A DNA stretch of 32,219 bases from Patescibacteria group bacterium. Its GTDB lineage: Bacteria > Patescibacteriota > Patescibacteriia > SG8-24. Location: contig JAQTNC010000003.1 in NCBI GenBank assembly GCA_028714475.1, forward strand, positions 79,596 through 111,814, written 5' to 3'. Shown in pieces: positions 1,609 to 32,190 of this stretch. Positions within the stretch are counted from its first letter, which is position 1, and every line of letters begins with the position of its first letter. Both the position numbers and the translations under genes were made by a program. The notes beneath the pieces are model-generated. The model had not been told where the DNA came from and made no database searches. It saw nothing but the letters and a program-made list of their open reading frames with translations.

Positions 1609-1688
1609 AGTGCTGGAGATGGGGAGTGCTGAAGTGCTGAAAATTCTTCAGTGCTTCAGCACTTCTGTACTCCAGCACTCGAGCACCC
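1609..1688. repeat. Octamer-unit hairpin array
   Basis: The segment divides into ten consecutive 8-nt units. The left arm has AGTGCTGG, AGATGGGG, AGTGCTGA, AGTGCTGA. After AAATTCTT the right arm has CAGTGCTT, CAGCACTT, CTGTACTC, CAGCACTC, GAGCACCC. The arms are imperfect reverse complements; 1610-1618 pairs perfectly with 1670-1678, and the inner arms pair with G-T wobbles. It lies immediately after the stop of the metallophosphoesterase gene on the minus strand. Confidence 0.8.
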
Positions 1689-3214
1689 TACACCACCTCC
1701 CGAATCTCGCCGGTTTCCGAAACGAATTCCCTCAAGGAGACGCGCAGACCGCCATCCGTAAAATGCTTGACGAGGGCGAAGGTCAGACGGCGTAGCGGCA
1801 CGACGTTGGGCTTGGTCACAAACAGGCTGATGAACGCCGCCAGGATTAGGAGCACCATCAGAATCACGGCCGGCAGCTCCAGCACGCCAAAATGAATGAG
1901 AAAACCGGCCGCCACGACGAACGCCACCCAAAACAAGATATAGCTCAACTGGATGCTCCTCGGCACTTCATGAGCGCGGAAGAAACGCTGGGTCTTCCGC
2001 CACGCCTGCTCCACGAAACGGAAGCGGCCCCAGATCAACTCCATCTTCGGATATTCCAAACCGAACAGCATCATCCAGGTGCCGGTGTTGATGTAGGTTC
2101 CGTGCGACCCGCTGACCCGGCGCCAGTTATGCGAATGGCCCAAGAGAACCGCTTTCACCTCCGGCCGTTCGCCAAGCAGCCGCGCCGCGTAGCGATCCAC
2201 CTCCACGACATCGCAGGTGAGAGCCTGCGTGATGGTATTTGCGAGCAGAGACAAACCGATACCGCGCTGTGCGGACGGATCCCGGAAGAACAGCTGTTTG
2301 ACGTAACCGCTGCTCACGATGCACGCCGTGTATAAGGTCCAGCCCCAACGCCGCAGGGCGGCTTCGGCCACGAAATCACGATAATTGGTCAGTCGACCAA
2401 CCAAAGGGTTATTCATCTTGATGCGGTTGATGACGCTGGCGTAAACACGCGAACCGAATGGGATATTCAGCACCGGCAGGCGCAACGGACGTCCAAATCG
2501 ATGGGTGACGATGGTATTCTCGGGACGCGGCGAATTTTGCACCTGTGATTCCATACCGTGGGAATACAGCACGCCGCGATGAAAATCCATGAAACCCTGA
2601 TGTTGGTCAACAAACCGGATGCGCGCGGCAATGTCATCGTCTTCGCCGGCAATCCGGCCGATCAGGCACCGCTGGACGGCCGGCCAAGCCAAGATCAAGT
2701 CATGATTGCCCACAAAAAAATCCACGCGCCTCTTCGGCTCGCGTAGGAATTCCGCCACCGCGTCGAAAAACGCCGGATGACCCGCGATGATCTTCTCCAT
2801 TTTTACAAGGGCGGCCTGCTCAAAAGGCGGCTCGACGTAATCGCCCTCCCAGGTCACGACCAAGGAATCAAACGTGTCGCCCAGGAAACGCAACACCAGC
2901 TGGCCAGCCGTCTCATAACGCTCGGCAATGCGGTTCAAGAATTTCACGAAGATGCCATCGTCCGGAAAATCTTCCAAAGGGTTGTTGGGGTTGACGCAGG
3001 GATTGGTCTCACGACCAAAGATGTAACATTTCACCTTTTCCATCAGCCGTCCCCATGGCGACGTGGCGCAGGCAATCGGCCGAAGCACACCTTCCGACAT
3101 GTGCAGGTCGCTCACGACCACGTGCACCTCCTCCGGCGGGTTCCGCAAAAACGCCCCCTGGCCCTGGCCGGCGGTTGACGTTTTTTCCGTGATGAATGGC
3201 TTGTCCGTTTCCAT
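1688..3214 (-). CDS. Calcineurin-like metallophosphoesterase with C-terminal membrane hairpin
   Basis: A 508-residue protein. It has the metal-ligand motifs of the calcineurin-like phosphoesterase family in order: VVSDLHMSEG (Asp36, His38), FLGDTFDSL, FFVGNHDLI, YSHGME and LLGHSHNWRR, followed by INTGTW. Such enzymes hydrolyse phosphomono- or diesters with two metal ions; the substrate is unknown. Near the C-terminus two hydrophobic stretches (IQLSYILFWVAFVVAAGFLI and LPAVILMVLLILAAFISLFV) form a likely membrane hairpin, so the catalytic domain is probably held at the membrane. Long inserts make it larger than simple family members such as the UDP-diacylglucosamine hydrolase LpxH (about 240 residues). 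The start is the ATG at 3214; no strong ribosome site is seen. Confidence 0.8.
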   Translation of the reverse strand: METDKPFITEKTSTAGQGQGAFLRNPPEEVHVVVSDLHMSEGVLRPIACATSPWGRLMEKVKCYIFGRETNPCVNPNNPLEDFPDDGIFVKFLNRIAERYETAGQLVLRFLGDTFDSLVVTWEGDYVEPPFEQAALVKMEKIIAGHPAFFDAVAEFLREPKRRVDFFVGNHDLILAWPAVQRCLIGRIAGEDDDIAARIRFVDQHQGFMDFHRGVLYSHGMESQVQNSPRPENTIVTHRFGRPLRLPVLNIPFGSRVYASVINRIKMNNPLVGRLTNYRDFVAEAALRRWGWTLYTACIVSSGYVKQLFFRDPSAQRGIGLSLLANTITQALTCDVVEVDRYAARLLGERPEVKAVLLGHSHNWRRVSGSHGTYINTGTWMMLFGLEYPKMELIWGRFRFVEQAWRKTQRFFRAHEVPRSIQLSYILFWVAFVVAAGFLIHFGVLELPAVILMVLLILAAFISLFVTKPNVVPLRRLTFALVKHFTDGGLRVSLREFVSETGEIREVV

Positions 3215-3288
3215 ACGGAATCATGGTTGCGACTTGGCCGGCCGCGACTGGCGACTGTCGTAACCAGCGAAAGCGGGCCGAACGCCGC

Positions 3289-6200
3289 TTAACTCAACAC
3301 TTCGCCGTAGCGTTTTTTGATAACGCCGCGGGTGTGCCTGATGAGATTGCCGAGGATTCTCGCCTCGCGCGAATCGGCGAAGCCGCCGCTCTGCAGGCTC
3401 TGCATCGTCTTTTCCATGGTGGCCAATGACCCGGCGGCCTGCTCCGCTTTCATGCGCATCGCGACACCCCCGCCCGCCGCCTGTATTTTCTGGATGTAGT
3501 CCGGCCGCAGGACCGAATGGAAATCCGCCTTGGCCGCGAGCGTCGTGCGGAAGCCGGTGACGTTGCCGTGCGAGTCGTAATTGAACCTGACGGGCGCGTC
3601 GCCGACGGCGGGACGTGCTTCCGGATAAGCCTGGTGTTCGGGCGCGACTTTAGGGCCGGCCTCGGCCGTAACGACACGAGAGGTGTCCGCGGCCGACGCC
3701 ACATCATGACGGAAAACGTCCACCTTGCCGGTCAGCTGCGCCAACCGCATGTTGTGCTGTTCCAGCGCGCTCCGCAAATAGGCGGCTTCCGGCGACTGGC
3801 CGTCCCCCGCCGCTTCCAGCAACGCCAAAGATTTCCTTCCCGCCGCGACCTCCTTGGCTACCCGACCGGCCTCCTCCACCCGTTCCCAAGGAACGTTCGC
3901 GGCGCGCAAGTCAGCTGTCCAACGCGGCTTGAGCATGGCGTACGGATCGAATTTGTCGGCTGGGCTGAAGCTGGTCACGCGCCCATGGCCGTCATAACTG
4001 AATCGCCCGCCCGCGTGATGAGCGACATCGGAACGCATGGCGTTCAGTTCTCGCAAGGCCGCGGCCCGCGCCTCAACCTGGCTGCCGTCAACGCTGAACT
4101 GCCGCCCGCCGGCGTCGGTCAAGGTGACCGGCCCATGCTGGTCGCCGTACGCCAGCTGTTCGAGCGAGCCGCGCGTCACGCCTCTCGTGTCGAAGGTGTC
4201 CGCGTAACGGCTGATGGCGTCATATTGCGCGTTGTTGTAGTCCGCGCCGCTGTGATCCAAACCGTCCGGCATCCGGAAACTCACCGCCTTGCCGGAAGTC
4301 ATGCGCTCGATGACCGCCAGCTTGTCCGAAATCTCCGCCCGCAACTTACCGGCCAATGGGCTGTCGCCGTAACCGCGGCCGTCCATCTCGTCGAGCAAGC
4401 GCTGTCTTTCATAAACGTTAGCCAAGGCCTTCCTGACGCCGGCACCCTGCTTACCGCTGGTCAACTCATCGAGATTGCGGCTGGCGACCAAATGCCGGGC
4501 CTGTTCGTTATGATCGGCTAGATAATGGCTAGCGACCTGATGATCAGGCAAACGAACGGCATCGATGGCGTAACCGCTCGGTTGGCCGCGGCTGTCCAGA
4601 ATGACACTCGCCTGCCACTGGCCTTCCGCACCTTGCCCGCGCTCCAGAACAACGGAACGCAACGCCTTGCCCGCGCCTTTGGCAGCGGTTGCCGTCGTAG
4701 ATGCCGTTTCCGCCGCCGCCTGGTCATGGCCAACCTCGGCCGCCGCCGTCGCTTCGGCCGTCGTATCGCCTTGAGCCGCTTCGGCCGCCAGTCTCGCCTC
4801 CTCGTATTCGGGAAGCGGCTTTATCTCGGTAATAGGTGGTGCGGTTGCGGGAGCCGGAGGCGGCTCATGAACAATGGCCGCGTGTTCCGGGGCCGACGGC
4901 TGACCGTGAATCGGTTCCGCCGAATGGTCAATCAAGCCGACTTTTTCCCCGGCCGCCACAGTGCCAGCATGCGCTACCCGCGCGAAGAGGCCGGAACCGA
5001 CGAACGCGCCGATGCCCACCGCCACCTTCTTCATCCGGTCATCGCTCAACTGATAACGCGACCGCACCTTTTCCATCCTGAAATCAGCCACGTGCATGGC
5101 GTCGTTAAGGTAATTGTCGACGCCGTCCGGGAAGACCGACAGAACCTTCTCGCCCTCAAGCTGTTCCAACCGCTGGCGCAACGCCTGATATTCGTCGTTG
5201 CCGACCAGACTCCGTCCATCCACCAAAGCCGTCGCCTCATGGTGCTCCATGAGTTCAACTATCTGTTCGCGCGATAAAACCGAGACGTCCTTGCCTTCCA
5301 TTTTCTTCCGGCGTCGCGCTTCGGATATCCTCTTCATCACGTCATATGAACCGACGCCAGCGCCGAAACCAGCCATGCCGCGGCGCATCAAAATCGCGCC
5401 TCCGCCGACAGCTGACATGGCGCCCAAGCCGAAGCCAACGCCGAGCAAACCGGCCGTGATGGCGTTGCGAACCGAGACGCTGCGCATGGCAAACTTCCCG
5501 ATGCGGCTCTTTGGTTCCCAACCAAATTTCTTTCCGAGGTTGAGGGCGTTCCAGTCACCGAGTTTCTGATGCCAGCCATACAGCTTCTCACCCAGCTTCT
5601 TTTCCCAACCCTTCTTCTTGAGCCACGCCTCACGACGCGCTTCCACTTGGCGTTCGCGCTCATCGAGCATGCGCGTGACGTTGTCGCCGACAAATTCGGC
5701 CCGCGCCTCGCGGTACTCGCGTTTCGCCCTCTCCGACTCCTCCGTGAGCCACATCTTCATCACCCGTCCGCCCGTACCCAAACCGCGCATCCAACCGACA
5801 ACGCCGTGATACCGACGCAGGGACGCCTCCAAGTCCGCCACGCGGTCGCCGGCTTCAGCCAAGCGATCCGACGGCGGCGTCACCGCGCGTCCGGTGTCCG
5901 GTGGCGTTGGTGACGCCCCAAAATCAAATCGCGTTCGCGGACCGGCATCCGGGCCGGCCGGCGCTACGTCAGGCCTCGCCGCGGCTACCGCCTCCAACTG
6001 CCTCGAAAGTTCGTCAAACCGCCGATTCATCTCGGCAAGCTGTCGCTTCAGTTCTTCAATTTCCGGGCTGGCTGGCGCGGCCTCGCTTTTCGCGGCCTCG
6101 GCTCCTTCCATTCGCTCCAAAATTGCCGACAGACGATCAAACACCGCCTCGACGCTCGGACCAGGCGCACCTTCGCGGCCAATTTCCGGACCGCCGGACT

Positions 6201-6609
6201 CTTTCTCGGTCGGAACCGGAGCCGCACCGGCCGTTTCCGAACCACCCGGAACCGGAGCCGCGCCGCGCGCCGCCTCACGGGCTGCCGCAACCAAAGCGTC
6301 TGTTTCTCCCCTCTCGGCACCGGGCATGCCCGCCGCCCCTAGGCGCGCCTCGTCAATCGCCGTTCTTTCCACAGGCAGCAAATCAACGTTTAGTTCGCGA
6401 ACCACCTCCTCAACGCGATCCGCCGTTGACAAGACAGCCGCCGCGGCCGCGCCGGATTCAGTTTCATCGTGACCCTGCTCCGCCATCACTTCCAACAAAG
6501 CCGCTTCCAAATCGGGCAGCCTTTCCTCTCCTTCCGGCCCGTGTTCAGCGCCCCGACCGGGTTCCCTCGTCGCATCTGGCCGTTGTCTCCTATGATGTTT
6601 ATCCGTCAT
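3289..6609 (-). CDS. Large membrane-associated protein of unknown function with internal repeats
   Basis: I do not recognise this 1106-residue protein. Visible layout: an acidic, Ala/Glu/Pro-rich N-terminal third that looks disordered; a coiled coil (EIEELKRQLAEMNRRFDELS, near residue 190); a charged Arg/Lys/Trp-rich stretch; a glycine-rich hydrophobic segment (AITAGLLGVGFGLGAMSAVG) and a second one (VAVGIGAFVGSGLFARVAHA), both possible membrane spans; an Ala/Thr/Glu-rich linker; and a repeated C-terminal half. Two clear repeat units start RFSYDGHGRVTSF and RFNYDSHGNVTGF, and an upstream one around SRGQPSGYAI looks degenerate. Its ATG at 6609 is 4 nt after the stop of the small coiled-coil gene, so the three genes 7139 to 3289 form an operon. 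Long plus-strand open frames across it are high-G+C shadows. Confidence 0.75.
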   Translation of the reverse strand: MTDKHHRRQRPDATREPGRGAEHGPEGEERLPDLEAALLEVMAEQGHDETESGAAAAAVLSTADRVEEVVRELNVDLLPVERTAIDEARLGAAGMPGAERGETDALVAAAREAARGAAPVPGGSETAGAAPVPTEKESGGPEIGREGAPGPSVEAVFDRLSAILERMEGAEAAKSEAAPASPEIEELKRQLAEMNRRFDELSRQLEAVAAARPDVAPAGPDAGPRTRFDFGASPTPPDTGRAVTPPSDRLAEAGDRVADLEASLRRYHGVVGWMRGLGTGGRVMKMWLTEESERAKREYREARAEFVGDNVTRMLDERERQVEARREAWLKKKGWEKKLGEKLYGWHQKLGDWNALNLGKKFGWEPKSRIGKFAMRSVSVRNAITAGLLGVGFGLGAMSAVGGGAILMRRGMAGFGAGVGSYDVMKRISEARRRKKMEGKDVSVLSREQIVELMEHHEATALVDGRSLVGNDEYQALRQRLEQLEGEKVLSVFPDGVDNYLNDAMHVADFRMEKVRSRYQLSDDRMKKVAVGIGAFVGSGLFARVAHAGTVAAGEKVGLIDHSAEPIHGQPSAPEHAAIVHEPPPAPATAPPITEIKPLPEYEEARLAAEAAQGDTTAEATAAAEVGHDQAAAETASTTATAAKGAGKALRSVVLERGQGAEGQWQASVILDSRGQPSGYAIDAVRLPDHQVASHYLADHNEQARHLVASRNLDELTSGKQGAGVRKALANVYERQRLLDEMDGRGYGDSPLAGKLRAEISDKLAVIERMTSGKAVSFRMPDGLDHSGADYNNAQYDAISRYADTFDTRGVTRGSLEQLAYGDQHGPVTLTDAGGRQFSVDGSQVEARAAALRELNAMRSDVAHHAGGRFSYDGHGRVTSFSPADKFDPYAMLKPRWTADLRAANVPWERVEEAGRVAKEVAAGRKSLALLEAAGDGQSPEAAYLRSALEQHNMRLAQLTGKVDVFRHDVASAADTSRVVTAEAGPKVAPEHQAYPEARPAVGDAPVRFNYDSHGNVTGFRTTLAAKADFHSVLRPDYIQKIQAAGGGVAMRMKAEQAAGSLATMEKTMQSLQSGGFADSREARILGNLIRHTRGVIKKRYGEVLS

Positions 6610-6613
6610 AAGT

Positions 6614-6817
6614 TCATTTGGCCTCGGCCGTTAAGCTAGCGGAAAGGCGTTTGGCCTTTTCCGCGTCCGCCCGCTCCATGACGCTTTTCAGGATCTGCGT
6701 CTGTCGCCGCTGCAAATCGGCATAGCGCCGCATGTATTCGGCATGCAGGTCACGCATCTCGTCCCTGATCTGTTGAATGATGACGGCCGCGGCCGCCTCT
6801 CTTTCCTTGGCGTCCAT
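6614..6817 (-). CDS. Small coiled-coil protein
   Basis: A 67-residue charged, helical protein (starts MDAKEREAAAAVIIQQIRDE) with heptad-like spacing of Ile, Met, Leu and Tyr along its length. No signal peptide, membrane segment or catalytic motif is seen, and no family is recognised. It starts 7 nt after the stop of the upstream 104-residue gene and ends 4 nt before the 1106-residue gene, so it is very likely co-transcribed and may be a partner of those proteins. Confidence 0.65.
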   Translation of the reverse strand: MDAKEREAAAAVIIQQIRDEMRDLHAEYMRRYADLQRRQTQILKSVMERADAEKAKRLSASLTAEAK

Positions 6818-6824
6818 AATCGAA

Positions 6825-7139: not shown

Positions 7140-7164
7140 ATGATTGCAGCTTAATTTCAAATAA

Positions 7165-7193
7165 ATTATGGCATATTTTCGGGGTTTTGTCAA
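7165..7193 (-). promoter_or_regulatory. Sigma-70-like promoter for the 7139 operon
   Basis: On the minus strand, TTGACA (7193-7188), a 17-bp spacer and CATAAT (7170-7165). Transcription would start about 20 nt before the ATG at 7139. Confidence 0.75.
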
Positions 7194-7225
7194 TTGAAAA
7201 AAGCTCACCAATAAAGCCATATATT

Positions 7226-7321: not shown

Positions 7322-7350
7322 TTGTCCAGGGTCGCGCCGGACACTGGCCG

Positions 7351-7564: not shown

Positions 7565-7582
7565 CGGTGTTTTTACGTGGTG
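7540..7582. repeat. 19-bp perfect inverted repeat including the tRNA-Lys CCA end
   Basis: CACCACGTAAAAACACCGG (7540-7558) is the exact reverse complement of 7564-7582, with loop GCAAG. The right arm contains the CCA, the discriminator and the last acceptor base of tRNA-Lys. In the primary transcript this hairpin would directly follow and overlap the tRNA 3' end. No T-run follows. Confidence 0.85.
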
Positions 7583-7653
7583 GGTCGGCCGGGGCTCGAA
7601 CCCGGGACCATCAGCTTAAAAGGCTGTTGCTCTACCAGCTGAGCTACCGACCC
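7578..7653 (-). tRNA. tRNA-Lys (anticodon UUU), CCA encoded
   Basis: The 76-nt minus-strand gene folds as a standard cloverleaf: acceptor GGGTCGG with CCGACCC, D-arm TAGCTCAGCTGGTAGAGCA, anticodon loop CTTTTAA (anticodon TTT), T-loop GGTTCGAGCC, discriminator A and encoded CCA (7580-7578). No strong promoter is seen just upstream; it may be read through from the small gene ending at 7787 or from a weak local promoter. Confidence 0.95.
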
Positions 7654-7738: not shown

Positions 7739-7766
7739 CCGGCGCTGTTCAGCTTAACAGCGCCGG
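7739..7766 (-). terminator. Terminator-like hairpin after the small acidic gene
   Basis: CCGGCGCTGTT (7739-7749) pairs perfectly with AACAGCGCCGG (7756-7766), an 11-bp stem, 21 nt past the stop of the minus-strand gene at 7787. The downstream minus strand is U-rich but lacks a clean T-run. Confidence 0.5.
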
Positions 7767-11562: not shown

Positions 11563-11580
11563 AAGAGACGGGGGGGGGTA

Positions 11581-11664
11581 GAGACAGAGAGACAGAGTGA
11601 CAGAGTGAAGGAGCGGCAAGCGCATCTCTGTCTCTATGTCTCTATGTATCTATGTCTCTATTTG
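11581..11664. repeat. Octamer-unit hairpin array overlapping the murG stop
   Basis: Left arm in 8-nt units: GAGACAGA, GAGACAGA, GTGACAGA, GTGAAGGA (11581-11612). Right arm: TCTCTGTC, TCTATGTC, TCTATGTA, TCTATGTC, TCTATTTG (11625-11664). The arms are imperfect reverse complements. The right arm encodes the last residues and the stop of murG. Confidence 0.85.
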
Positions 11665-16360: not shown

Positions 16361-17422
16361 TCAGGGGAACATGGAGAAGTCCACAAGCGCCAGCACCAAG
16401 CCGAAGACCGAGGAGACGGTCGCCACCACCCAGAAACGCATCACGACTTTCGGTTCCGGCCAACCCTTGGCCTCAAGATGGTGATGAATCGGCGTGGAAA
16501 GGAAAACCTTCCGCTTCAGAAACCGCTTCGACAGCATCTGGATGATGACGGACAGCGACTCGATGACGAGCGTAATGCCGATGATCGGCAGGAGGAGCGC
16601 GGCGTTCGTGAGCATCGCCACGATGCCGAGCGTCACGCCGAGAGACATGGCACCGGTGTCGCCCATGAAGAAACGCGCCGGATTGATGTTGAACCAGAGG
16701 AAAGCCAGGAGCGCCCCGACGATGACACCGCAGAAGGCCGCGAGGTCGGTCTTGCCCTGCACGAAAGCGATGGTGCCGTAGGCGGCGAAACAGGTGAGCA
16801 GGATGCCGCCCGCCAACCCGTCGAGCCCGTCCGCCCCGTTGACCGAGAAGGACGTGGCCACGATGACCAGGACAAAAAACGGCATGTACCACCAACCGAT
16901 GTTGAAATTGCCCACGAATGGGACGTGCAGGAGATCCCAGTCCAGCTTGAAATAGAACCAGAGGGCACCAATGAGGGCGATGCCGGTGTAGAGCAGGAGG
17001 CGATGGCGCATGCGCAACCCGCCGCCTTTCGGGCCGATGTGCCGGACGCCGAAGTAATCGTCCACCAATCCCACCAAGGCTGCGGCCAAGAGCGCGCCCG
17101 CCGGCAACAGCGTCTGTTCGCGCGAGAAGAAATCAAAAGCCGCGAACGGTCCGAGAACCTTGCCGCCGAAATGCAAAAGGAGGAGCATGACGAGCGTCGT
17201 GCCCCAAACGAGCACGCCGCCCATAGTCGGCGTGCCGCTTTTCGCGGCGTGCAGCTTGGCCATGATCGGCGCCGAGGCCTCGTCGCGAATCTGTTTGCCG
17301 AGCCGATACCGATACAGGAAATGCGTGAGAAGCGGCGTCCAAGCCACGGTTGTCACGAAGGCGACGGACGTCAGGAAGAACACCTTGATGATGCCGGCCA
17401 AATCATTCGTCATAGGATTCAT
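16361..17422 (-). CDS. mraY: Phospho-MurNAc-pentapeptide transferase MraY
   Basis: MraY transfers phospho-MurNAc-pentapeptide to undecaprenyl phosphate to make lipid I. The 353-residue multi-spanning protein has the family marks: GTPTMGGVLVWGTTLVMLLL, LVDDYFGVRHIGPKGGG (DDxxK region), NGADGLDGLAGG, FFMGDTGAMSLG and PIHHHLEAKGWPEPKVVMRF (the HHH loop). The ATG at 17422 overlaps the TGA of the upstream membrane gene as ATGA, indicating translational coupling; a second in-frame ATG lies three codons later. It leads into lon, ftsW and murG. Confidence 0.95.
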   Translation of the reverse strand: MNPMTNDLAGIIKVFFLTSVAFVTTVAWTPLLTHFLYRYRLGKQIRDEASAPIMAKLHAAKSGTPTMGGVLVWGTTLVMLLLLHFGGKVLGPFAAFDFFSREQTLLPAGALLAAALVGLVDDYFGVRHIGPKGGGLRMRHRLLLYTGIALIGALWFYFKLDWDLLHVPFVGNFNIGWWYMPFFVLVIVATSFSVNGADGLDGLAGGILLTCFAAYGTIAFVQGKTDLAAFCGVIVGALLAFLWFNINPARFFMGDTGAMSLGVTLGIVAMLTNAALLLPIIGITLVIESLSVIIQMLSKRFLKRKVFLSTPIHHHLEAKGWPEPKVVMRFWVVATVSSVFGLVLALVDFSMFP

Positions 17423-17814
17423 CGATTGAGGATCACAACAAGAACGGACGCGGCGGCCACGAGCGTCTCATTGGCCGCTGTCGCCGCATAAACCAGGAAC
17501 GCGAGCGCCCGATGCTGGCGCGCCAGGCGACCGGCCAGCCAACCGTTAATGAGGAGGATCACGCCGCCCACCGCAGGAAAAACGGCGATATTCCACCACT
17601 CGGCCACCCAATCCACGCCCCATCTGGCGGTATAATGAAGACGCAGGAAATCCGTCTGGCCCCATCGTGGCAGCACGAAACCGGCCACGGCGGCCAAACT
17701 GACAAGCCAAGCGGCGGCGGCTAAGGCGGCCATGACGGCCGTCAGCCGATCCGTCAGGCCAAAGCGGGTTTCGAAACGGGTTTTGCCTAACATATATCGC
17801 CACAAGCGTAACAT
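17419..17814 (-). CDS. Small membrane protein upstream of mraY
   Basis: A 131-residue protein starting MLRLWRYMLGKTRF; a TTG four codons earlier or an ATG at 17793 are other possible starts. Three hydrophobic segments are visible (AALAAAAWLVSLAAVAGFVL, WWNIAVFPAVGGVILLING, ALAFLVYAATAANETLVAAA), so it is probably an integral membrane protein. I do not recognise a family and see no catalytic motif. Its stop overlaps the mraY start, so it is the first gene of the mraY-lon-ftsW-murG unit. Confidence 0.75.
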   Translation of the reverse strand: MLRLWRYMLGKTRFETRFGLTDRLTAVMAALAAAAWLVSLAAVAGFVLPRWGQTDFLRLHYTARWGVDWVAEWWNIAVFPAVGGVILLINGWLAGRLARQHRALAFLVYAATAANETLVAAASVLVVILNR

Positions 17815-17818: not shown

Positions 17819-17877
17819 AGGTTCAAGGTGCTAGGTTCTAGATTCTAGGCCTAGAACCTAGTGACTAGAACCCAGAG
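17819..17877. repeat. Heptamer-unit hairpin array between divergent operons
   Basis: Left arm in 7-nt units AGGTTCA, AGGTGCT, AGGTTCT, AGATTCT (17819-17846); right arm CCTAGAA, CCTAGTG, ACTAGAA, CCCAGAG (17850-17877). CTAGGTTCTAG (17831-17841) pairs perfectly with 17851-17861, and TTCTAGGCCTAGAA (17843-17856) is palindromic. It lies between the start regions of the mraY and pilB operons. Confidence 0.8.
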
Positions 17878-17925: not shown

Positions 17926-19668
17926 ATGCTCAATGATGACCTACTCAAAAAAATCCTTCGGGAAACCGGCACTTTCGACGCCAAGGGCCTGGCCTCCCTG
18001 CTTGGGGAGCTCAAGGCCAAAGACCCGAAAATGACGCTCGAAGCCTATCTTCTCAAGGAGAAGAAAATGCCGGAGGAGATGCTTTACCGCATCGCCGCCC
18101 AGTATTACAAGCTGCCGTTCATCGGCCTGCGCGAGATTCCGGTTCGCCAGGACATCCTTTTCCTCATCCCGGAAGCCATCGCCACCTCGCACAAGATCGT
18201 CGCCTACGAGAAGACCCCGGACGAGCTGCGCGTGGCGACCCTTGACCCGACTGACCTGCAGACCTTCGAGTTCATCAAGCGCAAGACCGGCCTGCGCCTC
18301 CGCGTCTTCTACACCAACCCGTCATCCCTTGAGGACGCGCTCAAACAATATCGGCAAAGCCTTTCCGCCGAGCTTGGCGCGCTCACCAAGACGCCGTCCA
18401 AAGGCGAGGAGGGCGAGGAAGGCGACGAAAAGGAGCTGTCAAAGCTGGCCGAGGACATCCCGATCGTTCGTGTCGTGGACTCCATCATGGAACACGCCAT
18501 CCTCGATGGCGCCTCCGACATCCACATTGAGCCGACCGAAGCCGACGTCACGGTCCGTTTCCGCGTGGACGGCGTCCTGCGGCCGGTCATGAATTTCCCC
18601 AAGGCCGTCGCGCCCGGCATCGTCGCCCGCCTCAAGATCCTCTCCAACCTCAAGCTCGACGAGCATCGCATGCCGCAGGATGGCCGCTTCAAGATCGAGG
18701 CCAGCAACTACAAGTTCTCGGTCCGCGTTTCCGTCCTGCCGGTCATCGACGGCGAGAAGATCGTCATGCGCCTGCTCGCGGAAACGGCCACGGCCCTCTC
18801 CCTCGATCAGCTCGGCTTCCAGCCCAAGGCCAAGAACACCGTGGCCCGCAACATCAAGAAACCGCACGGCATCATCATGGTCACCGGCCCGACCGGTTCC
18901 GGAAAATCCACGACCCTATATTCCATCCTCGGCATCCTCAACACGCCGAAAGTCAACATCTCCACCATCGAGGATCCGGTCGAGTACCGCATGAGGGGAG
19001 TCAACCAAAGCCAGGTCAACCCGCGCATCGGCTTCACCTTCGCCGCCGGCCTGCGCTCGCTCCTGCGCCAGGACCCGAACGTCATCATGGTCGGCGAAAT
19101 CCGCGACCAGGAAACCGCCGAGATCGCCGTGCAGGCGGCCATGACCGGCCACTTGGTGCTCGGGACGCTCCACACCAACGACGCCGCCACCGCCCTCCCC
19201 CGCCTCCTCGACATGGGCGTGCCGCCGTTCCTCATCGCCTTCACCGCCAACATCATCGTCGGCCAACGTCTCGTCCGCAAGATCTGCCCGAACTGCGTCC
19301 GCTCCTACAAGATGCCGACCCACATGGTGGAACAGCTCCGCGAGCAGATTGACATCGACGGCATCTGGAAGACCCTTCAGCGGGAGGAGATTGTCGGCAA
19401 AGATCAGACCATCGAGGACACCACCTTCTGGCGCGGTTCCGGCTGCGCCCAATGCAACCATGAGGGTTACAAGGGGCGTCTCGGCATCTATGAGGTGCTG
19501 GAGGTGACGCCGGAAATGAGCAAGCTCATCGTGGACAAGGCCGATTCCGACGCCATCAAGAAGCAGGCCTTCGATGAGGGCATGATGACGATGATCGAGG
19601 ACGGCTTCGCCAAGGCCGTGAAAGCCCTCACCACCATCGAGGAAATTCTGCGCGTAACCAAGGACTGA
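17926..19668 (+). CDS. pilB: Type IV pilus extension ATPase PilB (GspE family)
   Basis: PilB hydrolyses ATP at the cytoplasmic base of the pilus machine to drive pilin assembly. The 580 residues are full length. Seen: an N-terminal MshEN-like domain (LLGELKAKDPKMTLEAYLLK), SDIHIEPTEADVTVRFRVDG, Walker A GPTGSGKST at 321-329, the Asp box TIEDPVEYRMRGVNQSQVNP, Walker B near GEIRDQETAEIA (Gly390), the His box TGHLVLGTLHTNDAATALPR, and a zinc-type four-cysteine site (Cys454, Cys457, Cys507, Cys510). The zinc site favours PilB over the retraction ATPase PilT. pilC starts one base after its stop. A -10 box lies 9 nt upstream and no Shine-Dalgarno is seen. Confidence 0.95.
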   Translation: MLNDDLLKKILRETGTFDAKGLASLLGELKAKDPKMTLEAYLLKEKKMPEEMLYRIAAQYYKLPFIGLREIPVRQDILFLIPEAIATSHKIVAYEKTPDELRVATLDPTDLQTFEFIKRKTGLRLRVFYTNPSSLEDALKQYRQSLSAELGALTKTPSKGEEGEEGDEKELSKLAEDIPIVRVVDSIMEHAILDGASDIHIEPTEADVTVRFRVDGVLRPVMNFPKAVAPGIVARLKILSNLKLDEHRMPQDGRFKIEASNYKFSVRVSVLPVIDGEKIVMRLLAETATALSLDQLGFQPKAKNTVARNIKKPHGIIMVTGPTGSGKSTTLYSILGILNTPKVNISTIEDPVEYRMRGVNQSQVNPRIGFTFAAGLRSLLRQDPNVIMVGEIRDQETAEIAVQAAMTGHLVLGTLHTNDAATALPRLLDMGVPPFLIAFTANIIVGQRLVRKICPNCVRSYKMPTHMVEQLREQIDIDGIWKTLQREEIVGKDQTIEDTTFWRGSGCAQCNHEGYKGRLGIYEVLEVTPEMSKLIVDKADSDAIKKQAFDEGMMTMIEDGFAKAVKALTTIEEILRVTKD

Positions 19669-20772: not shown

Positions 20773-21882
20773 ATGCGACAACGGGCAAGATACGAAGATG
20801 CGGAGATGCGGAGATGCGGAGTAATAAACTCTCCGAATCTCCGAATCTTTGAATCTCCGCATTTTGTTTTTCTGGGTCCCGGGTCTCGCGGAAAGCATTC
20901 CGCTTCGCCCGGGACGGCGCGCAAGCGCGCCGGCTTTACCCTCGCCGAAGTCCTCGTCACCATCGGCCTCACGGCGGTCCTTTTGGTCGTCTATTCGGTC
21001 ATGCTGACCAGCACCTTTTTCCTGCGACGCGCGTCAGCCAACGTCCAAGCCGCCAACTTCATCCAGGAAGAGCTGGACACCCTGCACACCCTTCCCTTTG
21101 CCGAACTCACCAACCGCACGGAAGGCAATTTCCTCGGCCTGCCCATCCAACGCGGAACATGGTCAGTGGCTGATGACCTGACGGACGGTCAAGGACATCG
21201 TCTGGCCATCACCACCACGGCCGCCGCCATCGTGAACGAGACCGGCCTAGTCGTCGTTCCCGGCAACTACCGCGACGACTTCACGTTTTCCGCCAAGGTC
21301 AAGCCCGGGTCCTCCTCCCCCAGCGGTTGGGGCGTGGTCTTGGCCTTCCGCTACCGCGATGCCGAGAACCACTACCGCATCCGCTTCACGGCCGCCGGCT
21401 ACGCCCTAGAAAAGGTCTACCACGGCGTGAAGACGACGCTCTGGTCCAACACGAGCTCCTGCTCCACCGGGCCAGGCGGAAGCTGTTGGGATTGGCGGAC
21501 GATCGAGGTCAGCGCCAGCAACAACGTCATCACTGTCAAGATGAATGGCTCGACGCTCACCACCTACACCGACACGTCAAACGTTTTCCTGACCGGCGAC
21601 CTCGTCCTCATGTCGGTGGCCTCGGCTAAAATCGCCTTTGACGACGTTGCCGTCACCGAAGCCAGCGGCACCACCACCTGGAACTTCACCGCTGACGCCG
21701 TCGGCCCCCTGCCGGCAACCTGGCAACGATTAAGCTGGGCCGACCTGACCGGCGGACAGGGACTCCTGACCATCGAGAACTACCTAAGCGAGACCAGCAT
21801 GAAAAAAGCGACCGTCACTATCCGCTGGACGGACGGCGACAAGATACGCTCCGTCTCCAGTTCGACCGTGCTCGGCAACTGA
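20773..21882 (+). CDS. Type IV prepilin-like protein with a lectin-like body domain
   Basis: A 369-residue prepilin. The peptidase site is RKRAG|FTLAEVLVTIG, with Gly54 at -1 and Glu at +5, followed by a hydrophobic helix. Residues about 160-297 read like a concanavalin/LamG-type beta-sandwich: DDFTFSAKVKPG, GWGVVLAFRYRDAENHYRIR, GYALEKVYHGVKTTLW, WRTIEVSASNNVITVKMNGS, AKIAFDDVAVTE. Such domains often bind glycans, so an adhesive minor pilin is possible. The ATG at 20773 gives a 54-residue leader, longer than usual, part of which is encoded by an octamer repeat array (20796-20862). An ATG at 20806 is a shorter option. It starts 8 nt after pilC; prepilin peptidase is not in the window. Confidence 0.8.
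   Translation: MRQRARYEDAEMRRCGVINSPNLRIFESPHFVFLGPGSRGKHSASPGTARKRAGFTLAEVLVTIGLTAVLLVVYSVMLTSTFFLRRASANVQAANFIQEELDTLHTLPFAELTNRTEGNFLGLPIQRGTWSVADDLTDGQGHRLAITTTAAAIVNETGLVVVPGNYRDDFTFSAKVKPGSSSPSGWGVVLAFRYRDAENHYRIRFTAAGYALEKVYHGVKTTLWSNTSSCSTGPGGSCWDWRTIEVSASNNVITVKMNGSTLTTYTDTSNVFLTGDLVLMSVASAKIAFDDVAVTEASGTTTWNFTADAVGPLPATWQRLSWADLTGGQGLLTIENYLSETSMKKATVTIRWTDGDKIRSVSSSTVLGN
20796..20862. repeat. Octamer-unit hairpin array inside the prepilin leader region
   Basis: Left arm: three units AGATGCGG (20796-20819). Right arm: CTCCGAAT, CTCCGAAT, CTTTGAAT, CTCCGCAT (20831-20862). The arms are imperfect reverse complements around AGTAATAAACT. It lies 32 bp after the pilC stop and in the open frame of the following prepilin. 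Confidence 0.85.
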
Positions 21883-26590: not shown

Positions 26591-26596
26591 CGGCCT

Positions 26597-27139: not shown

Positions 27140-27142
27140 AGT

Positions 27143-27742
27143 ATGCAAGTTAACAAGCGCATCGCCATCACCTCCGCCGTTCTCGGCGGCATCACCCTGC
27201 TCCTGCTGGGTGCCTTGGTCGTGCCGACCGTCCTGGCCATGAAAGAAGCCAAGGCGAAAATCGCCGAGGCGCGTCACGAAATCGAGACCCGCTATGCCCT
27301 CCGCCGCGAGACCCGGGAGTCGGTCAGCCAGCTGGAGGACGTCAAGAAACGCCTCGCCGAAATGCCGCCGGTAGCCATTCGGGAGGGTCAGGAGCTGGAT
27401 TTCATCAACGCCTTGGAAGTGGCGGCGGCCTCGAGCGGCGTCGAGCAGGAGTTGGCGTTGGAAACCGTCAATCAGAAACAGCTTTCGCCTTGGGAAACCG
27501 ACATCCCCGTGCGCCTCCAGGCCACCGGCGAATACCGCAAGGTGATGGCTTACTTGCGCCGCGTCGAGAAGATGTCTTATTACGTCCGGACGTCTTCCTT
27601 GAGCATTTCGATACCGCAAGCGCGGGAAGCCGCGGCGGAAGGTACCGTTTACATACGGATCGATGGCTACATCCGTTGGCTAGCCAAGGACCTGCCGATG
27701 TTCCAGAAACTGAACATCACCCCGGAACCGCCGAAGCCCTGA
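27143..27742 (+). CDS. pilO: Type IV pilus assembly protein PilO
   Basis: A 199-residue bitopic membrane protein with a span near the N-terminus (ITSAVLGGITLLLLGALVVP), a coiled coil (AKAKIAEARHEIETRYALRR) and a PilO-type C-terminal domain including VRLQATGEYRKVMAYLRRVE and a late TVYIRIDGYIRWL strand. It pairs with PilN to form the alignment complex. It starts 3 nt after pilN and is followed by the PilP-like gene after 12 nt. Confidence 0.88.
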   Translation: MQVNKRIAITSAVLGGITLLLLGALVVPTVLAMKEAKAKIAEARHEIETRYALRRETRESVSQLEDVKKRLAEMPPVAIREGQELDFINALEVAAASSGVEQELALETVNQKQLSPWETDIPVRLQATGEYRKVMAYLRRVEKMSYYVRTSSLSISIPQAREAAAEGTVYIRIDGYIRWLAKDLPMFQKLNITPEPPKP

Positions 27743-27754
27743 ACCAATTAAATT

Positions 27755-28159
27755 ATGAAGAAAGAAAAAAAGGCCGGCGGCTTTCCCATCACTTCCCTCA
27801 TCACGGTCGTAGTTCTCCTCATCATTTTGACAATGCTGGGCGGGACGGGATGGTTCGTGTCGCAAACGATTCTCGCAACCGACCAGACCGGGCAAGACAA
27901 CAACCTCGACGTGGAGGCGGAACGGCTGAACACGGCGTTGCTCAATCAGGTTGATCAGAACCTGAAGACAAAGACCGAGCAACCCATGCCGGACAGTAAT
28001 TCGTTGCGCAACCCTTTCCTTATAGAAACGCCGCCGCCAGCCCCGACTCCGACCCCGGAACCGCCGCCGACCGAAGAAGCCGTGCCGCCGACAACGCCGG
28101 AGATCCCGCCAGACGGCAATGCCGGGGCAGAAATTCCGCCGCCGGAGCCTACGCCATAA
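27755..28159 (+). CDS. Short membrane-anchored proline-rich protein, possibly PilP-like
   Basis: A 134-residue protein with a basic start MKKEKKAGG, one membrane span (ITSLITVVVLLIILTMLGGT), a linker, the motif SLRNPFLIE and a Pro/Thr/Glu-rich tail. RNPF resembles the RDPF motif of PilP or related pilus lipoproteins, but no lipobox cysteine is present, so the name is a suggestion only. It is the last gene of the pilM-N-O unit and is followed by a terminator. Its position suggests a periplasmic or extracellular spacer function. Confidence 0.65.
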   Translation: MKKEKKAGGFPITSLITVVVLLIILTMLGGTGWFVSQTILATDQTGQDNNLDVEAERLNTALLNQVDQNLKTKTEQPMPDSNSLRNPFLIETPPPAPTPTPEPPPTEEAVPPTTPEIPPDGNAGAEIPPPEPTP

Positions 28160-28164
28160 AACGG

Positions 28165-28194
28165 AAGGCCACCCTCACATCGGGGTGGCCTTTT
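28165..28194. terminator. Intrinsic terminator after the pilus operon
   Basis: AAGGCCACCC (28165-28174) pairs with GGGTGGCCTT (28183-28192), followed by T residues. It lies between convergent genes and can serve mainly the plus strand. Confidence 0.85.
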
Positions 28195-28228
28195 GGATTA
28201 TGACGCGACACAAAAAACGTCAGGTGCG

Positions 28229-29377
28229 TTAATTAAGCGCGGCCATGAGAACGTCCAGGTCCGTCTCCGTCGTGAACCGACCGAAGGAGATGCGGGTGCC
28301 GCCTTGCGTCGCCGCGCGATCGCCGAAAACGGCGCGGATGGCCGCTGACGGTTGGCGGTGACCGGCATCGCAGGCCGAACCGGAAGAGACGGCGACGCCG
28401 GCGGCATCAAGCTTGACGGCGAGCGTTTCGCCGTCTTCGCGATCGTGCTGGATGAAGACGATGTTGGGGACGGCCTTCTCCTCCGGCGTGAGGACGCGCC
28501 AGCCGCTTCGGTTCTTGACTCCATCAAGCAGCCGCCGACGCAATTCGGCCGCTCTGGCTGAATCCTTTGTCATTTCCGCTTGCGCGATTTCCGCCGCCGC
28601 GCCGAAACCGACGATGCCAGCGGCGTTTTCCGTGCCTGAACGTCGGGTTTCCTCCTGTCCCCCGCCGACGAGCAGGGGCTTCACGGCCAAGCCGCGCCGG
28701 AGCCACAGCGCGCCGACGCCTTTCGGGCCGTAAATCTTATGAGCGGACAAGGACAGCGAGTCGCAGCCGGCGGCCTTCACGTCTATCGGCAACCGCCCGG
28801 CTGCCTGCACGGCGTCACAATGGAAAAACAGCGGCAGACCAAGTCGTCCTCGCGCCGCCCGCGCCTCCGCGACGGCTTGGCCGACTTCCTCAATCGGCTG
28901 AATTGTACCCAGAATGTTGTTTACCCACATGACGGCTACGACCGCCGTCTCCGGCGTGATGAGCCGCGCCACGTCCGCTGCACTTATTAGTCCATCGCGT
29001 CCGACCGGCAACAGGTCCACGACCGCTCCTTTCTCCTCAACCAGTCGCCGCACCGCCGCACTCACGGAAGCGTGTTCGAAGGGCGAAATCAGGATCCGAC
29101 CGGGCTTGCCCGTGCCGACCGCCAAATCATACAATCCGGCGACCGCGTGGTTGTTCGCCTCGGTCGCGCCGGAGGTGAAGATGATTTCCCCGGTCTCGCC
29201 GCCGATAAGCGCCGCGACCTGTTTCCGGGCAACGTCAATTCGCCGCCGCAACTCGCGGCCCGGCGCGTGCACTGAAGACGGGTTTCCCGGCAATCGGGCG
29301 ACCTTATCCATGACTTCGGCGACCCGCGGATCAAGCGGCGCCGACGCAGCATAGTCGAAATATATATTCTCACTCAT
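28229..29377 (-). CDS. Cysteine desulfurase (NifS/IscS family)
   Basis: This enzyme takes sulfur from L-cysteine as a persulfide for Fe-S clusters or thiolation. The 382-residue protein starts MSENIYFDYAASAPLDPRVA; the frame extends by TTG to 29488, but that part crosses repeats and is not counted. Seen: SGATEANNHAV, HCDAVQAAGRLPIDVKAAGC (cofactor-binding Asp), SLSAHKIYGPKGVGALW with PLP lysine Lys214, and the catalytic SSGSACDAGH with Cys336. The short distance and direction suggest an operon with the upstream NifU-domain gene. Confidence 0.92.
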   Translation of the reverse strand: MSENIYFDYAASAPLDPRVAEVMDKVARLPGNPSSVHAPGRELRRRIDVARKQVAALIGGETGEIIFTSGATEANNHAVAGLYDLAVGTGKPGRILISPFEHASVSAAVRRLVEEKGAVVDLLPVGRDGLISAADVARLITPETAVVAVMWVNNILGTIQPIEEVGQAVAEARAARGRLGLPLFFHCDAVQAAGRLPIDVKAAGCDSLSLSAHKIYGPKGVGALWLRRGLAVKPLLVGGGQEETRRSGTENAAGIVGFGAAAEIAQAEMTKDSARAAELRRRLLDGVKNRSGWRVLTPEEKAVPNIVFIQHDREDGETLAVKLDAAGVAVSSGSACDAGHRQPSAAIRAVFGDRAATQGGTRISFGRFTTETDLDVLMAALN

Positions 29378-29405
29378 AATACTTAAACTGGTGCTAATCG
29401 TTCTT

Positions 29406-29510
29406 CCCCGAGCGGAGCGCAGCGGAGTCGAGGGGCAAATGGTTAGTTGCATCCTGTCCCTCGATCCCGCAAAGACGCTCCGCGTCAACGGGACAAGCAG
29501 GCTCGGGACA
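29406..29510. repeat. Intergenic inverted repeats between nifU-like and desulfurase genes
   Basis: 29406-29435 is a near palindrome bounded by CCCCGA and TCGAGGGG. TGTCCC (29455-29460) pairs with GGGACA (29490-29495) around an inner stem GACGC (29474-29478) and GCGTC (29482-29486). A further GGGACA at 29505-29510 can compete with the second arm. Confidence 0.6.
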
Positions 29511-29518
29511 GAATTGTT

Positions 29519-29815
29519 TTACTCAACCGCTACTACCCTTTTCACCCCCGGCACCTTGGCAACCAGATACCGCTCCACGGTATCGCGGAGCGTCATCGCC
29601 GCCATCGGACAGCCGCTGCACGCTCCTTGCAGGCGAACCTTGACCGTGCCGCGGCTGAACGAAACTAGTTCGACATCCCCGCCGTGCGTCGCAAGGGCCT
29701 TCTTCAAGGCCGCGATGGCAATTTTCAGGGTCACGCTGCCACCCGCCACGCGGCTCTTCTTAGCCGTTGGTTTCTTGATAACGACGGCTTTCTTGATTGT
29801 TTTTGGGTTCTTCAT
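29519..29815 (-). CDS. NifU-like C-terminal-domain Fe-S scaffold protein
   Basis: A 98-residue protein. A Lys-rich N-terminus (MKNPKTIKKAVVIKKPTAKK) precedes a NifU C-terminal-type domain: VTLKIAIAALKKALATHGGD, VELVSFSRGTVKVRLQGACS, and the cluster-binding CxxC in GACSGCPMAAMTLRDTVERY. Such domains carry a 4Fe-4S cluster to acceptors. A TTG at 29854 could extend it, but the ATG at 29815 is preferred; an AGGA lies 4 nt upstream. It starts the operon with the cysteine desulfurase, its likely sulfur donor. No IscU-type N-terminal domain is present. Confidence 0.88.
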   Translation of the reverse strand: MKNPKTIKKAVVIKKPTAKKSRVAGGSVTLKIAIAALKKALATHGGDVELVSFSRGTVKVRLQGACSGCPMAAMTLRDTVERYLVAKVPGVKRVVAVE

Positions 29816-29825
29816 AACGTCCTTT

Positions 29826-29854
29826 AGCTTATCCGCCGCTCGCCTGCCGGTCAA
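29826..29854 (-). promoter_or_regulatory. Putative promoter for the nifU-like gene
   Basis: On the minus strand, TTGACC (29854-29849), 17-bp spacer, TAAGCT (29831-29826). The -10 ends 10 nt before the ATG at 29815, predicting a very short leader; the AGGA would then be upstream of the mRNA start. Confidence 0.5.
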
Positions 29855-29903
29855 CCCATCTCAATACAGTGCCATGCGCTGCGCTTTCATCAGGCACGAC
29901 CGT

Positions 29904-29932
29904 TTGACCTTTGCCCGTCCCTTTGGTAAAAA
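29904..29932 (+). promoter_or_regulatory. Sigma-70-like promoter for the putative peptidase gene
   Basis: TTGACC (29904-29909), 17-bp spacer, TAAAAA (29927-29932). The leader would be about 37 nt, with AAAGG before the ATG at 29975. Confidence 0.6.
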
Positions 29933-29974
29933 ACACTCGCGGTCTTTACATTTTCAAACCGCAGAAAGGCTGTC

Positions 29975-31690
29975 ATGGCCAATCCTCAAGCTGACTGGGA
30001 AGACGTCATCGAAGAAGGTTTCGTGCCGCCGGACGTTTCGCAAATGACCTTGGCGGACGCGGTGCAGGCCGTCGCTGATGCCGTGAATCACCATGTTCAC
30101 GAATCCGCCGGCGTGCGCCAGTATCTCGAAGCCCTGCCGAAGGGTGCGGACACGAACTGCCCGGCGTCGCCGGTTGACCAGATCGCCCAGTTTCTCGGTT
30201 ACCGCCGGGCGAATGTTGACCAGGGCGATCCGGTCCTGTGGGCCCGCTTCTTGAGCGAACTGATGTTCCCGGTCTTCGCCTTCCGTCGCCGCCAAATCGA
30301 GGCGGCTTTGGACAGCCGCGAAGAGTGGGCTGACCAACTTGCCGTCGTCTGGCAGGGAAATCGCGTCGCCGAAGCCATGGACCAGCTCTATCTGGCCTGG
30401 TTCCGCCGCCACGTCACCCCGTACCTGCTCCTGCCCGACACGGAACGCGAACGGCTGGCCAAACTCTGGGCCAAATCTTTGCCGATGTTCGACTACACGG
30501 TCCATGACCCGAATGACGAGTGCAGCAACCGTCATGCCTGGGCCGTCGCCTTCCCCGACGAGGTCTGGGAGGTTCAAGGGGCCCTGCTCGGCCTGCTCGA
30601 ACTGATCAAAGAGGACTCGCCGGAAACCGCGACTTGCCTAGACCGGCTGGTTGATGCGTACGGCATAACCGAAATTGACCAGCTCGAGGCGGTTTGGGTC
30701 GCGGTCGATCAGGCTTGGATCACCATTCCGCCCACCGAAGCCCTCGTGCCTGTCTATGGGTTCGAGAACTACGAGCACCCGAACGGCGTTTCCCCGGAAT
30801 TCGTCCTGGCACTACGCGTCACAACGGAAGCACAGGCCAAGCAAATCGCGGCCTATCGGGAAAAGGCCATCGGTTTGGCTAGCCACCCCAACGCCTCCGA
30901 AGAATCCGGGACGGCGGCCGAGGCAAAGTTGAGCCGATTCGATGTCGGGGCATTCTTCCCGGTCACGGAAGGCGGCGTTCGCCTAAGCTGTACGATAGCG
31001 GGTCAGGTCATGCCCAATCGTCAGGACATCCTGGCGCAAGGGGGCCGTGTCTTCCTCTCGGAAGCCGCGAATCTCCGGCAATACCTCAACCTTTATCGGC
31101 AGGAAATCCGCCGGCACTGTACGGCTCAAGCTGCGGCCTTGCTGGAGGCGGTCATCACCGATCATGGGGAAGAAGGCCTGACCACCGGCCATGAATTCAG
31201 CCATCCGATTGGCCGCACGGCCGCAAGCGACCAGCGGCTAGGAGAGGCCTTGAGTCTTCTCGAGGAAGGCAAGGCCACGGTCGGCGGGATCATCGTGAGC
31301 CGGCTCATTGACCAGTCGCCTGAACGCGCCCGGGAAATCGTGGCCGTGTCCACGGGCAGGGTGTGCCGCTTCCTGCAACAGGGACAGCTTTCCGATGCCA
31401 GCAACGCGCCGTACGTCAGGGAGTGCCTGGTGGTCCTCACGGTCATGCTCCAATCGGGCGTGATCGTTCTCGACGCCGGCGGCCTCGACGTTGACCTCGA
31501 CCCGGCCAAGCTCAAGGCCTTCTTCGAAGGGCTAGATGCCTTCTTTGGCCGCGTCCTCGCCGCCTACCGCGACGGCAACCAGGAAGCCCTCGCCCAGATG
31601 CGGCGCGAATACTGCGGTGCTGACGATCGCGGCGGCCTGCCAGCCATCCGAGACATCATCGGCTGGATCAACCGACCCATCGTCAAGTAA
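29975..31690 (+). CDS. Putative zinc metallopeptidase, M49 (dipeptidyl peptidase III)-like
   Basis: A 571-residue soluble protein with no signal peptide or membrane span. The TTGHEFSHPIG segment has an HExxH zinc motif (His406, Glu407, His410). It is followed about 20 residues later by LGEALSLLEEGKATVGGI, where Glu430 or Glu431 would be the third ligand. This HE-x-SH plus LEExKA arrangement resembles DPP III-like M49 proteins, in which HExxxH or HExxH is followed by EExxA. The rest (helix-rich, with WAVAFPDEVWE and ALVPVYGFENYEHPNG) fits a large alpha-helical peptidase, but the family is judged from memory. It has its own promoter and terminator and no operon partner. Confidence 0.6.
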   Translation: MANPQADWEDVIEEGFVPPDVSQMTLADAVQAVADAVNHHVHESAGVRQYLEALPKGADTNCPASPVDQIAQFLGYRRANVDQGDPVLWARFLSELMFPVFAFRRRQIEAALDSREEWADQLAVVWQGNRVAEAMDQLYLAWFRRHVTPYLLLPDTERERLAKLWAKSLPMFDYTVHDPNDECSNRHAWAVAFPDEVWEVQGALLGLLELIKEDSPETATCLDRLVDAYGITEIDQLEAVWVAVDQAWITIPPTEALVPVYGFENYEHPNGVSPEFVLALRVTTEAQAKQIAAYREKAIGLASHPNASEESGTAAEAKLSRFDVGAFFPVTEGGVRLSCTIAGQVMPNRQDILAQGGRVFLSEAANLRQYLNLYRQEIRRHCTAQAAALLEAVITDHGEEGLTTGHEFSHPIGRTAASDQRLGEALSLLEEGKATVGGIIVSRLIDQSPERAREIVAVSTGRVCRFLQQGQLSDASNAPYVRECLVVLTVMLQSGVIVLDAGGLDVDLDPAKLKAFFEGLDAFFGRVLAAYRDGNQEALAQMRREYCGADDRGGLPAIRDIIGWINRPIVK

Positions 31691-31707
31691 ACCGCCCTTT
31701 CCGCCCG

Positions 31708-31740
31708 AACCGGCTTGCGCCCCTGCGCTGGCCGGTTTTA
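31708..31740 (+). terminator. Intrinsic terminator after the putative peptidase
   Basis: AACCGGC (31708-31714) pairs with GCCGGTT (31731-31737), with an inner GCGC/GCGC pair, followed by TTTATT. It lies 18 nt past the stop. Confidence 0.8.
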
Positions 31741-31748
31741 TTGTAGCG

Positions 31749-31765
31749 GCGCGACCCTGTCGCGC
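31749..31765. repeat. Short hairpin before the rpmA promoter
   Basis: GCGCGAC, loop CCT, GTCGCGC: a perfect 7-bp stem without a T-run, 30 bp before the rpmA -35. Confidence 0.5.
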
Positions 31766-31794
31766 TCCACCTATAATCGCCCCAACCCCCTCTC

Positions 31795-31823
31795 TTGACG
31801 CCAAACGCCGCCTGGCTTATACT
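31795..31823 (+). promoter_or_regulatory. Sigma-70-like promoter for rpmA
   Basis: TTGACG (31795-31800), 17-bp spacer, TATACT (31818-31823). The leader would be about 28 nt. Confidence 0.8.
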
Positions 31824-31857
31824 CTTTATGCGAAGAAATCGATAAACCACCCTAGAT

Positions 31858-32148
31858 ATGGCCCATAAAAAAGCCGGCGGCTCTACATCATACGGCCGAG
31901 ATTCCGTTTCCAAGCGCCTCGGCGTCAAGCTTTACGAAGGACAATACGCCAAATCCGGCGCGATCCTGATTCGACAGCGCGGCACCAAGTTCCGCCCGGG
32001 CAAGAACGTCTCCAAGGGCAGCGACGATACCCTGTTCGCCACGGCGGCCGGCATCGTCAGCTTTACCAGGAAGAAGGTTCGCCGGTTCAATAACGACCTG
32101 ACGGACGCGCGGTTCGTGCACGTCATGCCGGTCGAAGCGAAGGCATAA
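31858..32148 (+). CDS. rpmA: Ribosomal protein bL27
   Basis: bL27 is a large-subunit ribosomal protein whose N-terminal tail reaches the peptidyl transferase centre. The 96-residue protein starts [20 protein letters not shown] and continues [20 protein letters not shown] and [20 protein letters not shown], all conserved in the family. The N-terminus has no cleavable Firmicutes-type extension. The usual partner rplU (bL21) is not upstream; the gene has its own promoter and terminator. Confidence 0.97.
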
Positions 32149-32150
32149 GG

Positions 32151-32190
32151 AGTTGTAAAGTCGTAAAGTAGTAAAGTTGTAAAGATGAAA
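32151..32190. repeat. Octamer-unit tandem array after rpmA
   Basis: Five consecutive 8-nt units: AGTTGTAA, AGTCGTAA, AGTAGTAA, AGTTGTAA, AGATGAAA, starting 2 nt after the rpmA stop. No inverted right arm is visible before the window ends. Confidence 0.8.

Follow-up and report, generated by a model that had tools for sequence, protein, structure and literature searches.

Intergenic arrays of 7- and 8-nucleotide units, many with inverted arms, in a draft genome of the Patescibacteria

Among long simple repeats heptamers are the most frequent class, and slippage of the polymerase has been proposed to produce them (Mrazek et al. 2007, via PMC4679880 and PMC4692102). The heptameric LSSRs of Calothrix and Nostoc, known from the same sources, are intergenic, heptamer-dominated and scattered sporadically over lineages, with lineage-specific units, and slippage tied to the polymerase footprint was proposed there. 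The GGGAATC repeats of Xanthomonas and the GGGGA(C/T)T repeats of Nostoc are numerous imperfect intergenic heptamer arrays whose length varies strongly between relatives, and some are inverted, including Xanthomonas arrays (PMC4692102). The TAACTGA repeats of Beggiatoaceae form intergenic heptamer sets of 2-6 copies with a patchy distribution across phyla, and a translational role has been proposed for them (PMC4679880). In the P6b stem of the Nostoc tRNALeu(UAA) intron, degenerate heptamers of variable copy number pair as a hairpin (PMC3488679). REP/BIME elements with RAYT are many-copy intergenic palindromes with a limited vocabulary per genome (PMC2817692, PMC8266576).

The arrays that we describe here, from a draft Patescibacteria genome (G000), resemble these systems in the features of layout and distribution just listed. 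They are an extreme form of the already known intergenic heptamer repeats; we found no description of octamer-palindrome arrays in Patescibacteria in the open-licence literature. G000 departs from the LSSRs in that its octamers almost match its heptamers in number, its units fall into about ten AG-anchored families, and the majority of its strong elements are palindromes. Whereas the Xanthomonas and Nostoc repeats use one G-quadruplex-type unit per genome and are mostly direct, G000 uses many units that do not resemble G-quadruplex motifs, and its arrays frequently have inverted arms. The Beggiatoaceae repeats differ in having a single fixed unit that is almost only direct, and the P6b stem is one locus in an intron RNA, whereas G000 carries dozens of intergenic loci. 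In contrast to REP/BIME elements, those of G000 are built internally of tandem 7/8-mers and vary widely in stem length and unit number, in a genome where no Y1_Tnp was found; instead of a fixed 20-40 bp tagged palindrome, only AG...CT ends recur.

The window analyzed here is the whole stretch of 32,219 nucleotides at C3:79596-111814 of G000, a 1.41 Mb draft genome in 43 contigs. The gspE/pilB-like protein encoded in the window is closest to records of Candidatus Uhrbacteria and related MAGs (about 75-80% identity), a match that places the genome in Patescibacteria, with Candidatus Uhrbacteria as its nearest named relatives. The genome-wide survey covered 1.18 of the 1.41 Mb, in which a simple hexamer-based caller gave 1058 genes (84% coding). 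Repeats were detected by segment scoring; an autocorrelation computed across all gaps together mostly reflected composition and was less useful. G000 was compared with nine other genomes of its family.

An initial annotation of the window had proposed six loci built of tandem heptamers or octamers, five of them with inverted arms. All six divided into 7- or 8-mers at the coordinates proposed, and most array starts held; the array placed at 11581 begins at 11580, and the AGATGCGG array begins at about 20788 (Table 1). At each locus, 1000 Markov shuffles of the gap around the array never matched the observed score at its own period, and 300 never did so at any of the periods 4-20. Folding of the DNA confirmed long hairpins at five of the six loci (z -4.2 to -7.1), and an inverted arm was absent from 32151-32190 (z -0.1).

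Table 1. Heptamer and octamer arrays of the window.
Feature	Units	Coordinates	Strand	DNA fold
Octamer hairpin	AGTGCTG[AG] / [CT]CAGCACT	1609..1688	.	-26.7 kcal/mol, z -7.1
Heptamer hairpin	GTTATTG/GTTGTTG with CAACTAA/TAACCAA	7661..7738	.	z -6.0
Octamer hairpin	AGAGACAG/AGAGACAT	11580..11664	.	z -5.0
Heptamer hairpin	AGGTTCT/CTAGAAC	17819..17877	.	z -4.2
Octamer hairpin	AGATGCGG / CTCCGAAT	20788..20862	.	z -6.1
Octamer array, no inverted arm	AGTTGTAA/AGTCGTAA/AGTAGTAA	32151..32191	+	

The first hairpin occupies the end of the gap between the genes at 949-1527(-) and 1688-3214(-), and its right edge touches the stop codon at 1688. The second sits between tRNA-Lys (7578-7653) and a GC-rich terminator-like stem (7739-7766). 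The fourth separates two divergent genes, 17419-17793(-) and the gspE/pilB-like 17926-19668(+), and the fifth follows a gspF/pilC-like gene. The last array has a stop codon (32148) on one side and a terminator-like stem (32194-32214) on the other. At the third locus, the array supplies the final codons and stop of murG on the minus strand (AAT AGA GAC ATA GAT ACA TAG): the ORF ends at 11642, and its last six residues, NRDIDT, and the TAG come from octamer units (11642-11660). Matches to murG of relatives stop short of this array-encoded C-terminal stretch. An ORF at 20773/20806 (region 20773-20932) has its apparent N-terminus inside the AGATGCGG array; its homology begins only at about residue 43, and its true start is therefore probably downstream of the hairpin.

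The sharp 7/8 period extended to the genome. In the intergenic part of the 1.18 Mb surveyed, period 7 accounted for 54 arrays and period 8 for 36, whereas periods 5, 6, 9, 10, and 11 gave 0-1 each, and shuffled intergenic DNA yielded none of period 7 or 8. G000 thus shares with the LSSR/STRR class intergenic short tandem units in which heptamers stand far above other periods except 8; with octamers making up 36 of the 90 arrays, the one-period heptamer dominance of that class is absent. Repeats in coding DNA nearly all had periods that are multiples of 3. Five period-25 arrays were also prominent in the intergenic scan. The period-7 and period-8 arrays merged into 87 elements, distributed by gap orientation as 36 <<, 34 >>, 10 ><, 6 <>, and one at a contig end. 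Strong inverted arms were present in 48 of the 87 elements, compared with 1 of 87 shuffled sequences and with 16 of 200 gaps that carry no array.

The units had been described as unrelated between loci, and at the scale of the genome this proved wrong. Identical units were shared between loci far more than expected, with 60 identical-unit pairs among 48 heptamer elements (1.4 expected) and 77 among 39 octamer elements (0.1 expected). The unit AGTGCTGG/A was found in about 19 elements, AGCC[AGT]TA in 10, the AGAGACA type in 8, and AGAACCT/AGGTTCT in at least 8; the six window loci are a chance sample of six unit families. Nearly all hairpins (58 of 59) had AG within the 5'-arm unit, which is in effect AGN5 or AGN6, a pattern noticed post hoc; 29 of the 59 began with AG, also a post hoc count in which units within families are not independent. 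In well-defined families, the same unit came first in every two-arm element, giving a uniform polarity about the hairpin centre. The arm order of the GATNCG pattern was ambiguous because this pattern nearly equals its own reverse complement. Long near-perfect octamer arrays with 8-12 copies of CTCCAGCA were seen on the start-codon side at C3 1341-1440 (L004), C3 40949-41015 (L078), and C1 51707-51772 (L065), and at these three loci the loop that separates the arms holds a TTGAC(A)-like box. The octamer CTYCAGCA triplet had 41 matches in G000, and the other 380 genomes of the class had none, a distribution which indicates that the units are lineage-specific; the heptamer CTAGAAC triplet was present in 7 of 381 genomes, which belong to six families.

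Heptamer arrays were common in other Patescibacteria, some with inverted arms, and 31 kb of their intergenic DNA contained 18 period-7 arrays but only one each at periods 6 and 8. Within the family the distribution was patchy: in a small sample of 37-86 kb per genome, arrays were clear in only one of the nine relatives, G006. There, palindromic octamers of the related unit AGATGCGG/AGACGCGG occupy the same post-gspF gap as in the window. This gap measures 155-173 bp in G000, 36-69 bp in four array-free relatives, 114 bp in one further relative, and 123 bp with the related octamer array in G006. On contig C16 of G000 (845-4038, L017), three near-identical junctions each have a terminator followed by an AGTGCTG hairpin, and these paralogous copies differ by one octamer unit, so that unit turnover is recorded inside a single genome. 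The order of variant units was mirrored between the arms above permuted order (Wilcoxon p 1.6e-7, 47 elements), a small effect in which no element was significant alone and in which boundaries taken from the observed alignment bias the test towards the observed order.

Our preferred explanation, to which we give about an even chance, is that the elements are products of DNA slippage and hairpin template switching in a palindrome-tolerant background, without a dedicated signalling role. Strand slippage would add whole 7- or 8-nt units to, and remove them from, a short non-coding seed that contains AG. Hairpins can arise by template switching (PMC8794818), and once a hairpin had formed, the polymerase would switch templates there and copy one arm onto the other, so that the arms become mirror images. 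The arrays would extend until they meet stop or start codons, at times invading a coding end, and we propose that they persist in gaps because insertions are tolerated there. Unit families would spread among loci of the genome via ectopic recombination or inter-locus template switching.

A local generating process had been suggested for the window from the outset, and its slippage and strand-switching form is now the best supported: the sharp period, the whole-unit difference between paralogues, the mirror-image arms, and the balance of G-T and A-C mismatches outside one unit family, described below, all argue for a local DNA process. On its own, however, such a process misses the units shared across loci, and sharing via a limited AG-anchored vocabulary means that dispersal or common ancestry is also required. 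Similarly, the recurring units, the fixed polarity, and the near-universal AG are unaccounted for by slippage alone and point to common descent or selection. Slippage plus template switching accounts for neither the step of 7 and 8 nor the AG. It also leaves unexplained that the stop-adjacent arm favours CTGAAG and the start-adjacent arm CTGGAG (29:13 vs 14:34), an asymmetry that is transcription-related and is not predicted by a neutral process. Both this mechanism and the neutrality of the elements are inferences that we hold with about even confidence.

SbcCD cleaves long palindromes in other bacteria. Neither a recognizable SbcD nor a MutS ATPase domain was matched in any of the 10 family genomes by searches that were positive in most control genomes. 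This background may be permissive, in that long palindromes may go uncut. As SbcD and MutS are missing family-wide, yet arrays are clear only in G006 among the nine relatives, losing them can at most have been permissive. The PolA 5'-3' exonuclease domain is present in G000 and in 9 of the 10 family genomes, so its loss was rejected as a cause.

Among the alternatives, the elements might be mobile palindromes of a non-autonomous kind, similar to REP/BIME or MITE elements, with a 7/8-mer interior and moved by a trans-acting transposase, which would recognize the phase-locked AG...CT ends as termini. We regard both the mobility and this role of the ends as unlikely. Recurring units of fixed polarity with similar ends at unrelated loci (AGTGCTG...CAGCACT; [C]AGCC...GGCT[G]) are consistent with mobility, as are the lineage-specific distribution and the observation that element-bearing gaps are often 40-145 bp longer than their counterparts in relatives. 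However, no match to Y1_Tnp (PF01797; RAYT/IS200-type transposase) was found in G000, although this domain is present in 6 of the 10 family genomes, and an origin from RAYT is accordingly unsupported. RVT_1 was likewise not found in G000. Moreover, copy length and unit number vary, the loops are unrelated, no target-site duplication was seen by eye, and each of about ten unit families would require recognition.

A similarly doubtful alternative is that the elements are functional RNA stem-loops at operon junctions, acting in 3'-end protection, in attenuation, or as a multi-frame translational backstop, in which 7-/8-nt units with TAG/TGA/TAA would place stops in all frames. Elements frequently run from the upstream stop codon to the next start codon (ATG), and stop codons reach a higher density in the stop-proximal arm (0.092 per nt) than in the opposite arm read as its reverse complement (0.075 per nt; p 0.006), as such a role would have it. 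An SD-like tetramer preceded 0 of 34 genes adjoining a 3' arm vs 159 of 723 elsewhere, which may reflect only arm composition and start-calling errors.

Against an RNA role, the arrays generally have no T tract of their own, and canonical terminators stand separately beside several of them; arrays were therefore rejected as intrinsic terminators. Only tRNA-Lys scored above the Rfam gathering score in the window, and identity with an Rfam family was rejected. Divergent gaps also bear arrays (6 of 87), and most sampled relatives have none. Selection on the stems as RNA should tolerate G-U pairs but not A-C mismatches. Stem mismatches on the sense strand comprised 86 A-C and 33 G-T overall, but about 38 and 29 (summed by family) when the AGTGCTG family was left out, so that the A-C excess is due to this family. 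The stems thus show no preference for G-U over A-C; the earlier idea of selection on RNA shape finds no support here, and a DNA-level origin is favoured. For the AGTGCTG family alone, an antisense RNA role may apply. Overall, the hairpins of G000 probably arise from DNA-copying errors rather than act as signals.

We also considered a dedicated activity (a nucleotidyl transferase, polymerase, or recombinase) that builds AG-anchored 7-/8-nt hairpins at gene boundaries in some Patescibacteria. Such an activity would account for the fixed step, the shared AG, the polarity, and the vocabulary common to different loci, and we think it improbable. An enzyme making fixed-length units had been raised initially; no candidate emerged, as neither a reverse transcriptase nor a Y1 transposase was found. 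With RVT_1 (PF00078) unmatched in both array carriers, G000 and G006, an origin from a reverse transcriptase (retron, DGR, or telomerase-like) is unsupported.

Still less probable is a role of the arrays as landing sites for a protein, oligomeric or modular, that binds nucleic acids with a footprint of 7-8 nt. OB-fold cold-shock proteins, an example of such proteins, are reported to bind one per heptamer; CspB binding of heptamers is discussed in PMC4679880, and a fixed unit length with variable sequence would suit them. On the other hand, about ten unit families and a patchy occurrence in the family are hard to reconcile with this reading, single-strand binding needs no long hairpins, and no partner was identified. 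Chance or an assembly artefact, as a 43-contig draft with short gaps that can appear repetitive might suggest, is refuted by the shuffles at every window locus and by 90 arrays against none in shuffled DNA, and has next to no probability given that diverged units inside arrays are atypical of assembly stutter and that heptamer arrays were found again in independently assembled Patescibacteria.

To our knowledge, the surplus of heptamers among the simple repeats of bacteria, on record since 2007, is without a tested cause. G000 is extreme in combining two adjacent steps, about ten families, palindromes, and an AG anchor with no detectable SbcD, MutS, RAYT, or reverse transcriptase. This extremeness makes the polymerase-footprint idea, the role of a palindrome-cutting nuclease, and the route of dispersal directly testable. 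The murG case shows that non-coding arrays can overwrite gene ends and provide stop codons. G000 is a good test case for the bacterial bias towards 7-letter repeats.
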